Assembly: GCA_003117195.1 (NCBI GenBank)
Contig: BDSI01000009.1
Span: 1,592,594-1,656,593 of the forward strand
Direction: 5' to 3'
Length of the DNA stretch: 64,000 nucleotides
Origin: Eudorina sp. 2006-703-Eu-15
Taxonomy: Eukaryota; Chlorophyta; Chlorophyceae; Chlamydomonadales; Volvocaceae
Numbering within the stretch: the first letter of the stretch is position 1; every line of letters begins with the position of its first letter. The position numbers and the translations under genes were made by a program. The notes beneath the pieces were generated by a model. The model saw nothing but the letters and a program-made list of their open reading frames with translations. It searched no databases and was not told where the DNA came from. This document shows positions 4,038 through 9,678 of this stretch, one piece after another.

Positions 4038-6172
4038 TCAGTCCATGGCATTCCAGTCGATGGCCGAGGATCTGCTGGTCGTGGCCGACGTCGCCGTCGT
4101 CGTCACTTTGCACGGATCGCTCCCATTCGCCTTCCTGTCCTCACCGGGAGCAGCAGCAGTCGGTGCCGGCGCCGCGACCCGGGCTTGCGCCTCCACCACA
4201 ACCACGGGCGCCTTCCCGCCAGCCCCTGCCTCGGGCTGCGTTTCCGCAGCGGCCGCAGCCTCAGCCGCCGCCGTCTCCGGCTCTGCCCTCCCCGACGTCG
4301 TCGCAGCATCCGCCGAGGGCTGTGCCCGCGCCTGCGCCTCTTTCCCGCCGGCCTTCGCCTTGCCAGCCTGCTGCGTCGCCGCCGCCCTTAGCGCCTCCTG
4401 CAGCTCCCCCCGCAGCTCCCCCACCGGTCCGTCGGAGGCCGAGTCGCACTTGCCCAGCCCCGACCGCGCCGCCGCCTCCGCCGCCTCCCGCCGGCCCAGC
4501 TGCAGCAGCGCCCGGCTCTTGCGCAGCAGCGTCTTGGCGGCGGCGCGGCCAGTGGGCTGCAGCTCCAGCGCCGCGTCGCAGTCCAGGACGGCGGCCTCGT
4601 AGTGCCGCGCCACCACGCCCTGCGAGCAGGGTGGCTATCTTATTTTTGGGAGTATCTACGGCCAGAGATACACCTGGCTTCGAAACGCTGAAAGTATCTG
4701 TCTATGGGGAGATATTTCCAACTGGAAACGGCCCGAAGTATCTACAGAGGGCATCGGACAGGGCGCAACATTGATGGAGAACTTCCACGAACCGAACCCA
4801 TAAGTGCAACACCTTGCCATAGATGACTGCAGACGGCGAGAACCGACCCCGGGTGGGAGATATCGGGGACCCCATCACTGGTGGGAGTATATGTCAACGG
4901 GAAGATATCATGTCCCACACGAGGGGTCAAAGTATCTTAAACTCCATGTTTTGGCAGGCCAAAAGTATCTAAAATTTCAGAAGTTTTTCGGCCGAATAGA
5001 TATTTATATCTTAAGATAGCCACCCTGCCTGCGAGCCGTGGTCCACACCCTCCAGGTAGCCCGCCGTGTCGGCATCCCCTGAGGAGCCGCCCCGGGCAGC
5101 ACACCAGGGAGGGATTGCATTGAGGAAAACGAACCGAAGGCAGGGGAGGGGGAGAGACGTACCCAGTCACCCCATGCCACGGCGCGTGATACGCGGTCAT
5201 TAAGAGGCACAGCCCCCGTGCAGGCCGCATCATACGTATCCAGGAGTGCGGTTACGACACAGAGAGCGCGGGCGCGCGACCCGGGTGAGAGGCGCCGGTG
5301 AACACCGCAGCTCCGGAAAAGGCCGCGCCGACGCATGAAACGCCCCACGCCGCACGGACGCGGTCATCACACCAGCGCGTGATCGTTACGTGATGTCCGG
5401 CCAGCGCGCGCCGTCCTGCTCGCAGAGCGCGCGGCAGCAGACTTCGGCACTGCCTGCGCTGTGTCGTATTTCGTCCTCCCTGGAGGCTTTCAAGGGGGCA
5501 GCCCGGCATCTGCGACCGAGCGCGAGGCCCTGGTGATGAACCCCGGGGGGACCTGCCAGCTGCGCACCTTCCCGCAGCTTCCCGGCCGCCGCCCGCGCCA
5601 TGTACGCGGCAGCGCGGTTCGCGTGGTAGGCGGCGCGGCGGGGGCCCTCCGTCAGCAGTCTCTCCTGGGGTACCAACGAGTCGAGGGCGGCGCTGTAGAG
5701 CTGGACAGCCGCCGTGAAATCGCCGCGCCTGCGGTCGGCCGGAGGAATCGGTTCCAGATGGACAGGGGAGGGAGCGAGTTGTCGGGGTCGCGGAACTGCA
5801 ACGACATCCTGGTCCCCTGGTAAGGCCTACGACCTTCGGCAGGAGCCCAACCATGGCGACGGAAATGAATGTGTGTGGCTGGCCATCGGCGCTTCGAACA
5901 CGACAGCAAGGTTACAATGACGGGTGTGGTGGAGATCCCCCGAGCTGCGCTAAGAGATGCGGGGGTAGGAGCAAGCGGGGTCCGGAAGACCGGCAGCAGG
6001 CTGGACATCGCATGGCTGGGCCGCTCGGGGCCTGCACAATCGCGGCACCACCCGGCGCACCCCGCCACCCCACCCACTTGTACGCCTCGTTGCCCTGCTC
6101 CTTGAGCAGCTCCGCCTCGTTGTCGGACGACGGGCCGCTGTTGATCTCGGTCCGCTCCGAAACCACCGTCAT
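4038..6172 (-). CDS. TPR-repeat protein, coding exon interrupted by a MITE
   Basis: Exons on the minus strand: 6172-6078, 5728-5568, 5078-5029 and 4619-4038 (stop at 4038), giving about 295 aa if the MITE-bearing segment is spliced out. The start is ATG at 6172, directly followed by MTVVSERTEINSG. The first TPR helix pair is clear once the first intron is removed (LLKEQGNEAYKRGDF, then AAVQLYSAALDSLVPQ and AAYHANRAAAYM). A second TPR-like unit follows (ARHYEAAVLDCDAALELQP, LLRKSRALLQLGRREAA). The last ~100 residues are Ala/Glu-rich and end in DWNAMD. This resembles co-chaperone-type TPR proteins, but the exact partner is unknown. The third coding exon is split by the element at 4627-5027. Unspliced, the frame hits TAA inside its terminal repeat. 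Splicing GC(5028)...AG(4620) restores the frame exactly. Otherwise this allele is broken. Confidence 0.75.
4619..4626. repeat. Target-site duplication of the 4.6-kb MITE (left copy)
   Basis: CCTGCGAG, repeated at 5028-5035. On the gene's strand the duplicated word is CTCGCAGG. This supplies the AG acceptor (CTCGCAG|G) on one side and the GC donor position on the other. Confidence 0.92.
4627..5027. mobile_element. hAT-type MITE, 401 bp, with perfect 16-bp TIRs and 8-bp TSD
   Basis: The left end reads CAGGGTGGCTATCTTA (4627-4642) and the right end (5012-5027) is its exact reverse complement. The 8 bases on each side are identical: CCTGCGAG at 4619-4626 and 5028-5035. An 8-bp target duplication with CAG-starting ends is the hallmark of hAT-superfamily DNA transposons. 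There is no transposase frame, so the element is non-autonomous. Its interior is AT-richer than its surroundings and carries many copies of an AGTATCT / AGATAT motif in both orientations near the ends. These could be transposase-binding subterminal repeats (inference). Perfect TIRs and TSD suggest recent insertion. Confidence 0.92.
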
Positions 6173-6243
6173 CTGCGGCCGGTCATTGCGAGCGAAGCGA
6201 GTAATCGACACACCGATGTGGTGGCGATGCGGTCGGTCAGCTC

Positions 6244-9200
6244 TCAGCTGTCGGCATACCACAGCAACAGTCGCCGCCGCCGCCGCCGCAGCAGCAGCAC
6301 CCCCACCACCGCGGCGGCGGCAGCCGCAGCACCACAACCGTACAAGGAATTGGGGTCCATCAACGGGGTCGCAGCCGCCGCCGCAGGGAGGTCATTCCCC
6401 CGTGACCTAGGGTCCACCGAGTCCTCACTGACACGACTGACCCGTGGGTCTTCCTCATCGCCATCCAGTCCACCCAGCAGGTGAGGCTGCTGCTGCTCAG
6501 TCCCCGGCGGCGCGGCGGCATCGCCGCCAGCGGCCGGCGGCTGCGGCTCCTTCGCCGGAGGGAACCTGCGGCGTCGGCCGGCGTCAGAACGTCAGCAACG
6601 CGCCATCCACGAAGGCAGACGAAGGTGACGGCGATGACGAATATGATGAACACGAACATCATGATATACATTCATGAAGATTATGATAAGGATGATGGGT
6701 TGATGACGGTAGCGATGATGGTGCGACCTAACCTCCGCGTGTTCGCAGGCTCTGCACAGCCTGGTACGCACCCCCACCTGCTGAAGTCCTGGTGCAGCGC
6801 GGACGCCAGCTCTCGCTCCTCCGCCGTCACCCGCGGGTCCGCCGCCCAGCGCTCCAGCATCGCCAGCAGGGAGGCGCTGAGCGACAACCGGTTGTCCTGT
6901 GCGGGCAGGGGGAGGAGCGAGCATGGGGCGCAGGGAGCTGTGCAGGGACCGGTGCAGGGAACGGTGCAGGGATCGGTGCAGGGGCCAGTGCAGGGACCGG
7001 TGCAGGGACCGGTGCAGGGACCGGTGCAGGGACCGGTGCAGGGGCCAGTGCAGGGACCGGTGCAGGGACCGGTGCAGGGACCGGTGCAGGGACCGGTGCA
7101 GGGACCGGTGCAGGGACCGGTGCAGGGACCGGTGCAGGGACCGGTGCAGGGGCCAGTGCAGGGACCGGTGCAGGGACCGGTGCAGGGACCGGTGCAGGGA
7201 CCGGTGCAGGGGCCAGTGCAGGGACCGGTGCAGGGACTGGTGCAGGGGCCAGTGCAGGGACCGGTGCAGGGACCGGTGCAGGGACCGGTGCAGGGACCGG
7301 TGCAGGGACCGGTGCAGGGATCGGTGCAGGGGCCAGTGCAGGGACCGGTGCAGGGACCGGTGCAGGGGCCAGTGCAGGGACCGGTGCAGGGACCGGTGCA
7401 GGGGCCAGTGCAGGGGCCAGTGCAGGGACCGGTGCAGGGACCGGTGCAGGGGCCAGTGCAGGGAACTGTGCAGGGGCCAGTGCAGGGGCCAGTGCAGGGA
7501 CCGGTGCAGGGACCTGTGCAGGGGCCAGTGCAGGGACCTGTGCAGGGGCCAGTGCAGGGAACCGTGCAGGGGCCAGTGCAGGGAACCGTGCAGGGGCCAG
7601 TGCAGGGACCGGTGCAGGGGCCAGGGGCCAAGGCAGAGCCGCGAGGGAGAGGGCGCTGGATGAGGGCCGCCATCCTAGGCAGCCCGGGTGCGGATCGGCT
7701 TCGTAAGAAGCGGGTGGGCTGAGGAGCTGGCCCCGGCATTGTGCAGTATCCAACCGAGCCTTTGCTCTGGCTGTCAGAACATTTGCTGCCATTTAACCCC
7801 TCCCCATCCATTGGTTTCGCAGTGACGGTACGCCGTCCGCAAAGAAGCGAGCGACATCATCTATCGTCGCACCCCGGAAGGCCCCAGCCTGCCCGCCTGC
7901 CTCCGGCCTGCCGCCCGCCCAGCCAGCCGCCCGCACACACCCACACACCCCTACCTGCGTGAAGTGCCTCCTCATCCAGGACAGGTAGAACGCGAGCAGC
8001 CGCAACGCCATGTAGGAGGCCCCCGGGAAGACGGCCGGGTGGCGGTAGTGCGCCAGCAGGTTGGGCAGGAAGCCGCCGCCGCCACCGCTCAGATCGAACA
8101 GGGCCCGCCACACGGCGGCGTAGGGCCCCTGCCGGGGCCCCCGGCCGTCGGGTGTGGGCGGTGGGTCGTGCCAGGGAAACAGCAGCTCCTCGTCCGTGAT
8201 GTGGAGGAGCGCCGACATGGCCTGACTGGCCAGGTAGGGGTTGGAGTGCGCCAGCGCGGCGGCGAGCTGCCTGCGACGGAGGGGATGCGGGTCGCGGTGG
8301 GGGGCCCGCAGGCGGTGGGGCCCGCAGGCGGTGGGGCCCAAAGGCGCATGAGAACACTCCAGGCAGCGACAGCAACCTCAAGACCGGCGAAACTCGGATT
8401 TTACTTGGGGTGCTGCCCAGGCGAGGTTGAGGCTATGCCCAGCCGATGGAACCGAACGCCGACCCAGCCCAGGGTGGCTTCTGACTGTCTCACAGTGGGA
8501 ATGACATGGCAAAGGGTGCGGCGCAACGTCGGGGGCCAGGCAAGGCAGACCGGGCAGGTGAGGGTCATATGACGCAGGCGGTGGTCGGATCCCTCCCGCA
8601 CCGGGCCCCCTTCCTCCCCTCCTCCAAACCCACCTGAGGCCGCCCGCCTCAATGAACGGTCGCACCCGCTCCCAGCTCTTGCTGTGGACCAGGTACAGCG
8701 ACGCCAGCGCGCAGACCTGGCGGAGCGCGAGAGGAGGGAGAGGACGAGCAGGCGGGAGGCGATCCAGACAGGAAGGGAGCAGCCCAGAAGGCAGAGACAC
8801 GGTCGCAGAGACGAAGTGGCAGAGGTCGGGGCCAAAAAGATGCGCCGAGAGCTGCAAGCCGACGTGGGAATGGGGTGACGTGGTGAGGTGCCGGGGGCGG
8901 GGACTTCCACCCCGGGGTTGTAGCATAGCGAAAACGCCGCATCCCGGGGTGCTCTTTTTCCGACCTTCCTGCCTCCGAAGTCGCACCTGGAGGTTCCGCT
9001 GTGGGTGGTTGTTGGGCGCGTCAGGAGGCGGCATGGCGATCAGCGCCGGGTACAGCCGCATGTCGTCCTCATCGGGAGCGAACAGGATCTTGCGCGCCTA
9101 TCTTCAAGTAGGGTCAGGCCGGTGGGGGACGGAGAGGTCGGGGGGTGTTGGAGGGGACCAGGTGAGAGTTGAGTTACCGTGAAAGCCCCGGACAGCCGTA

Positions 9201-9678
9201 GCCGCCGATCAGGCCGAAGAGGGTGCAAGCTGAAGGGGGCCAGGTGTGGTACGGTACATTGCAACCGGCGCTGGGCGATAGGTGGAGGTGCCGTAGCGAG
9301 GGAAGGAGTCAGCGAGGCTTCGAAGTGATGGCATTTCTGGATGTGACCGGAGCTCCGGCATGGATCCAAGCGCTGGAACATGACAGCTCTGGAGCATGAT
9401 GACAACTACGCGTTGCGATGTGGGCAGCAGGGTAGTCCGACCGAGTGATCTGGGTCACAGCCCCGCGGGTCTGCGGGCCCGGGAAACCAGACCCGGAGCC
9501 GCACCTTGCTGAGTGGGACGCTGCGATGCAAGCAGAGTGCCATCTCATCCACCGGTGGCTTTTCATATCGTTTCTTGAGTCCCGCCCGCAGCTGCTCGGC
9601 GACATCTGGGGGACTCTCTTGCAGCGCGACCTCCAGAAACTTCTCGAAATACTCCTCGGATTCTGATTGCCTTGTCAT
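6244..9678 (-). CDS. Armadillo-like helical protein with C-terminal hydrophobic segment
   Basis: Six exons on the minus strand: 9678-9505, 9097-8987, 8716-8634, 8270-7955, 6896-6778 and 6565-6244 (stop at 6244), about 374 aa, with all phases consistent. The N-terminus ([20 protein letters not shown]) and middle are alpha-helical. Residues ~110-160 read like an armadillo repeat ([18 protein letters not shown], then [15 protein letters not shown]). They are followed by more paired helices ([40 protein letters not shown]). The last exon is a Pro/Ala/acidic linker, then an Ala/Val/Leu stretch flanked by arginines ([20 protein letters not shown]), ending in YADS. That could be a tail anchor or a low-complexity artefact. 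The fourth intron is filled by a 12-bp minisatellite. The gene ends about 70 bp before the TPR gene start on the same strand. No family name is recognised. Confidence 0.7.
6941..7624. repeat. 12-bp minisatellite, about 57 units
   Basis: Tandem units of GTGCAGGGACCG with a common variant GTGCAGGGGCCA and rarer ones. The array lies wholly in the intron between exons 4 and 5 of the armadillo-like gene. Because 12 is a multiple of 3, long open frames (VQGP and similar repeats) appear on both strands. They are not genes. Confidence 0.95.

Follow-up and report, generated by a model that had tools for sequence, protein, structure and literature searches.

A probable recent hAT MITE insertion in a conserved volvocine gene, with candidate GC-AG splice sites at its target duplication

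The interrupted gene and the inserted element

The window (the whole stretch of 64,000 nucleotides that was analysed) carries a conserved volvocine gene on its minus strand, and the last coding exon of this gene is interrupted by a short element bounded by inverted repeats and a target site duplication (TSD). In gene order the features are:

4038-9678, minus strand: whole gene model, conserved volvocine gene of 604 aa with weak TPR matches, placed by homology
9505-9678, 8987-9097, 8634-8716, 7955-8270, 6778-6896, 6442-6565, 6078-6172 and 5568-5728, minus strand: other exons of the gene
5029-5078, minus strand: part of the coding exon that precedes the element (DADTAGYLEGVDHGSQ), from the alignment of relatives
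5028-5035: right copy of the TSD CCTGCGAG; its last sense G (5028) and the C of the element (5027) form the candidate GC donor
4627-5027, given the minus strand of the interrupted gene: 401-bp element classed as a nonautonomous hAT element (MITE) from its TIRs, TSD, other copies and a 7,119-bp element
5012-5027, minus strand: right copy of the 16-bp TIR, by inverted-repeat match
4627-4642, plus strand: left copy of the 16-bp TIR, CAGGGTGGCTATCTTA, by inverted-repeat match
4619-4626: left copy of the TSD CCTGCGAG, reading CTCGCAGG on the sense (minus) strand; candidate acceptor AG at 4621-4620
4620-5028, minus strand: candidate GC-AG intron of 409 nt, splicing predicted
4038-4619, minus strand: remainder of the coding exon beyond the element, stop codon included, from the alignment of relatives

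Exons were placed by mapping Tetrabaena and Astrephomene relatives onto the minus strand. Once the element and one TSD copy were omitted, 604 residues were open from 9678 to the stop at 4038, and the eight other introns, as placed by homology, were all GT-AG and in phase. A 12-bp tandem repeat at 6930-7619 (57.5 copies, 89% matches) takes up a large part of the 1,058-nt fourth intron. In the preliminary description this was called a TPR gene. A conserved coding gene was confirmed, but the TPR matches of the protein were below the Pfam cut-off and the name is therefore descriptive.

The protein search listed 25 relatives, with no near-identical protein of the host strain among them. Ten named volvocine proteins from this list were aligned at the insertion site and all were gap-free across it; VDHGS[Q/E] was present at the site in five (Pleodorina, three Volvox and C. 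reinhardtii), matching the host gene, and the other five carried substitutions. A genome search with the 186-aa second half of the protein gave three matches among 13 scored candidates, all of them the gene's own exons, and no second gene copy was found with this query.

The element is 401 bp long with a GC content of 48%, against 65.5% for the window. It is bounded by perfect 16-bp TIRs and flanked on both sides by the 8-bp TSD, in an exon conserved across the ten volvocine relatives, which bears out the original identification of a MITE in a coding exon. When the element is retained, the frame runs from DHGSQ into AGWLS and reaches a stop within the element, five residues in. Residue 411 is the last before the element, so that 193 of the 604 residues are lost.

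An older intron at the same codon, later invaded by the element, had been named beforehand as the finding that would overturn a recent origin. No support for this history was found in the exon structure or the protein alignment: the two exon pieces are separated only by the element and a TSD copy, the exon is continuous without them, and the proteins of the ten relatives run through the site uninterrupted, a comparison made on protein and not on the relatives' DNA. An invaded old intron was therefore rejected as extremely improbable.

Copies of the element and its family

The 16-bp terminus was found in 749 exact occurrences in the 181.2-Mb genome (3,033 contigs), implying about 375 elements, and the 30-bp left end in 200 occurrences at up to two mismatches. 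A copy was counted when both TIRs (at most two mismatches each) and a TSD with at most one mismatch were present. From 87 loci, 25 yielded no new pair; some of these repeat a site or are cut short, and ten belong to the 27 loci fetched for their AGG ends. Two further AGG ends on contig C1452 were left out of the fetched loci. Most of the 63 paired copies measured close to 401 bp or 236 bp; two were 452 bp long and one was 7,119 bp. Perfect 8-bp TSDs flanked 61 of them and the remaining two had one mismatch, the most that pairing allowed. Compared with the focal copy, the nearest of 44 other full-length copies (L002) differed at 2 of 401 positions, 40 differed at 4-14 positions and three at 15-33, indels not being counted.

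Two copies lie 1,180 bp apart on contig C165 (217882-219479, L076) and two termini on C1452 are separated by the same distance; the paired spacing suggests a tandem or segmental duplication that took the MITE with it.

The 7,119-bp element (L060, C7:281605-288723) shares the 16-bp TIR of the MITE, and its sequence matches the first 123 bp of the MITE at 93% and the last 142 bp at 75%. Pieces of minus-strand ORF in L060 matched Dimer_Tnp_hAT (18.8 bits) and DUF4371 (15.1 bits), both below the Pfam cut-off. The concatenated transposase pieces gave 38 relatives, including Pleodorina starrii, Gonium, Tetrabaena, ZNF862-like and KIAA1586-like proteins, the best match being to Pleodorina starrii (82% over 34% of the query). 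Among the relatives listed, DUF4371 appeared in at most 37 entries and Dimer_Tnp_hAT often, and many entries carried the two domains together. A Pfam PF05699 search of the genome matched one place, on contig C58. CAGGG-type ends, as carried by the MITE, are usual for hAT elements, and position 2 of the TSD was T in 46 of 92 strand readings. From the 8-bp TSDs, the T at TSD position 2 and the transposase matches of L060, the family is classified as hAT and the 401-bp element as a nonautonomous member. The transposase that moves the MITE would be supplied by a 7.1-kb hAT element of the L060 type. By terminus spacing, three elements of ∼7.1 kb with MITE termini lie within 290 kb (C7:281605-288723, C7:545221-552339 and C7:561378-568497), the first of which, L060, was the one read.

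Candidate splice sites at the duplication

The candidate intron runs from 5028 to 4620 on the sense strand (409 nt), with donor CAG/GCAGGG and acceptor CCCTGCTCGCAG/G (exon-intron boundaries are marked by a slash). The donor takes its G from the TSD and its C from the element, and the acceptor CTCGCAG/G lies wholly inside the other TSD copy; neither site is wholly within the element. A donor in AG/GCA context, an AG acceptor, an open frame and exact removal are thus all present. Exact 409-nt removal with restoration of the frame, as first proposed, was reproduced by computation, the joined gene encoding 604 aa.

Beside the gene's own sites the candidate sites are plausible. The acceptor, previously judged good, resembles the native GTCGCAG/G, GCCGCAG/G and ACCGCAG/G. 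The proposed GC donor, half of which is given by the TSD, differs at +2 from a native donor, CAG/GTAGGG. Its computed U1 pairing was -6.5 kcal/mol, compared with -5.3 to -11.4 kcal/mol for eight inferred native donors, -5.2 kcal/mol for the element's own GT site and -1.9 kcal/mol for a cryptic upstream GT. At 409 nt the candidate falls within the native intron lengths of the gene (212-1,058 nt). GC-AG introns are known in C. reinhardtii, where 532 are given beside 25,053 GT-AG introns in the excerpted text of PMC2846911.

These properties are points in favour of one possible reading, a newborn GC-AG intron that is efficiently spliced, with the TSD acceptor and the TSD/TIR donor used in most transcripts to give a normal protein. 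The gene is otherwise intact and conserved in the ten relatives, but the insertion is too young for an intact gene to be proof of function. Further features argue against efficient use. U1 pairing is interrupted at +2 by the GC, and the donor has a competitor in a GT site 5 nt beyond it, use of which leads out of frame. Two competing AGs lie 15 and 19 nt upstream of the acceptor. No branch-point-like yynAy was found in the last 60 nt of the candidate intron, against seven of eight native introns, although the stricter yUnAy is present in just two of the eight. Near the acceptor 11 of 20 positions are pyrimidines, towards the bottom of the native range of 10-17. With these points weighed together, efficient and exact splicing was considered unlikely; a higher probability was given to some exact splicing at any level.

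Donor and acceptor pairs were scanned with all GT donors, GC donors only as AG/GCA, introns of at least 60 nt and acceptors up to 80 nt beyond the element. A stop-free frame was kept by ten pairs, from two donors (the candidate GC and the weak cryptic GT), among them the candidate GC donor joined to a TAG within the element (+15 nt) and GGT/GTGGAC with the TSD acceptor (-18 nt). The statement that the frame is regained if and only if one TSD copy and the element are deleted was therefore too strong. The companion statement, that the nearest GT donor (AGG/GTGGCT) shifts the frame, was sound, since no in-frame product was obtained from that donor within the scan. Direct joining of the native donor upstream to the acceptor in the TSD was rejected by reasoning, the donor being in phase 1 and the acceptor in phase 0, so that their junction is out of frame.

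A fresh insertion flanked by a TSD regains its frame automatically when one TSD and the element are subtracted, and the restored frame is therefore no evidence of splicing. Exact removal by splicing requires a TSD that contains AGGT or AGGC or ends in AGG. In the exons of the host gene, with the element omitted, some exact GT/GC-AG removal was permitted by 146 of 1,752 octamers (8.3%), and 42 of 1,752 sense-strand octamers (2.4%) ended in AGG. Among octamers having T as the second or A as the seventh base, 22 of 477 in these exons permitted exact removal. Exact removal was possible in 7 of 92 strand readings of 46 copies unselected by TSD (the focal one included), which were drawn from best-match and contig-order listings and not randomly. 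From the octamer counts and these copies, the focal geometry is roughly a 2-8% accident per exonic landing. Three other copies (L010, L013 and L058) have AGGT inside the TSD and would permit exact GT-AG removal on one strand.

The element had also been placed among intron-creating transposons, and a genome-wide search for its termini had been proposed. If the family were an introner spreading by intron creation, the focal copy would be one member among others. The CAGGG terminus can supply the rest of a GC donor wherever the TSD ends in AGG, and introners whose two splice sites both come from the insertion site are described in Florenciella in the excerpted text of PMC9860276; the MITE itself carries neither splice site whole. 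AGG preceded 33 of the 749 termini, against 23 of 749 for the control AGC, a difference that was not significant (two-sided P 0.23).

Coding-likeness was scored on joined flanks, using an assumed codon table and requiring a single frame across the two sides. Three of the 63 sites came out as coding-like, the focal L001 together with L013 and L069, whereas among 1,600 random positions the share was 14% (P 0.018). When the focal copy and the AGG-selected loci were omitted the count was 1 of 45 (P 0.009). The score flagged just 71 of 185 true exonic positions of the host gene and so misses many exonic sites, which holds equally for the random positions. By this proxy, which scores coding sequence, the sampled copies are not enriched in genes. 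Among AGG-type copies, 2 of 20 (L001 and L069) scored as coding-like on the sense strand, close to the 7% that chance would give, and L069, the second such copy, was itself selected for AGG. The search thus returned abundant termini, with few sampled copies in coding-like sequence, and one host-gene candidate for an intron position was obtained among 63 sampled sites of about 375 elements. With copies rarer in coding-like sequence than random positions, AGG not above AGC and no second host gene established, the introner framing was not sustained; an introner family is very improbable.

Two of the sampled sites are described here in their own right. L069 (C77:556470-558280), fetched for its AGG end, is a 237-bp copy in a coding-like ORF with sense TSD AGCGGAGG, and exact GC-AG removal is possible there too. 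No Pfam match was found for the ORFs of L069 or L013; that of L069 may resemble a zinc-finger-like protein of another transposon. L044 (C20:1030809-1036838), just under the coding-like threshold, is a copy inside an ORF with a Phage_integrase match (21.9 bits, below the cut-off), and its host ORF is possibly another mobile element of the alga.

Interpretation and known systems

The locus is probably best explained as a conserved gene broken by the recent insertion of a hAT MITE whose edges are intron-like by accident; part of the transcripts may be spliced, and the family does not appear to be an introner. A nonautonomous hAT element would have inserted recently into the final coding exon of a TPR-like gene that is conserved and apparently single-copy, the cut-and-paste integration duplicating the 8-bp target CTCGCAGG. 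Transcripts that retain the element would encode a protein truncated after 411 of 604 residues, followed by five encoded by the element. The target octamer resembles an exon junction, and the TSD together with the hAT terminus CAGGG would consequently supply an acceptor of good quality but a weak GC donor. Exact splicing at the TSD sites may then occur in some transcripts, as reported for Ds1. Counted against this explanation is a splice geometry that is good for an accident, with a native-like acceptor and U1 pairing in the native range.

The opposing possibility, that a single ordinary hAT MITE copy from an otherwise non-introner family is an exactly and efficiently spliced GC-AG intron caught at birth, appears doubtful. 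A new intron or a fresh knockout, the two outcomes first put forward, was the correct pair of alternatives. From that earlier interpretation the MITE, the conserved exon, the native-looking acceptor and the half-contributed GC donor were retained and the introner framing was set aside. Viewed as a transposon, the element is a young hAT MITE of ordinary type; its standing as an intron is that of a candidate.

The conserved exon, intact TSDs, near-identical copy elsewhere and apparently single-copy gene make the locus a clean natural test of the transition from transposon to intron. If the element is spliced, an ordinary hAT MITE can create an intron without a specialised introner family; if it is not, the locus illustrates how a landing of this kind comes to nothing. 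In principle this is not new, having been reported since maize Ds1. A literature search over titles of open-licence papers returned no hAT splicing or introners in a volvocine alga.

Gozashti et al. 2022 (PMC9860276) count as an introner family four or more introns that are similar to each other, and in the excerpted text of that study gene enrichment of introners is given for 161 of 175 genomes and GC 5' splice sites make up 0-50% in some families. With the TSD-bearing introners described there the focal element shares a DNA-transposon anatomy and, as in some families, a candidate GC donor; in some of those families both splice sites come from the insertion site. Unlike introners, the sampled copies of its family are not enriched in coding-like sequence. 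The L060 transposase pieces match ZNF862/KIAA1586-like hAT transposases of volvocine algae (Pleodorina PLESTF_000459000, Gonium and Tetrabaena).

Maize Ds1 is said, in work attributed to Dennis et al. in 1988 and Wessler in 1991, to behave as an intron and to undergo alternative splicing from exons. It is a nonautonomous hAT element of the Ac/Ds system, ∼400 bp long with an 8-bp TSD, according to the portion of PMC3260210 consulted. The focal element differs from Ds1 in its termini and its green-algal host, and its splicing is a candidate predicted from sequence. A short hAT element in a coding exon is nevertheless what was observed, and with a length of about 400 bp, nonautonomy, an 8-bp TSD and an exon insertion in common, maize Ds1 is its closest likeness.
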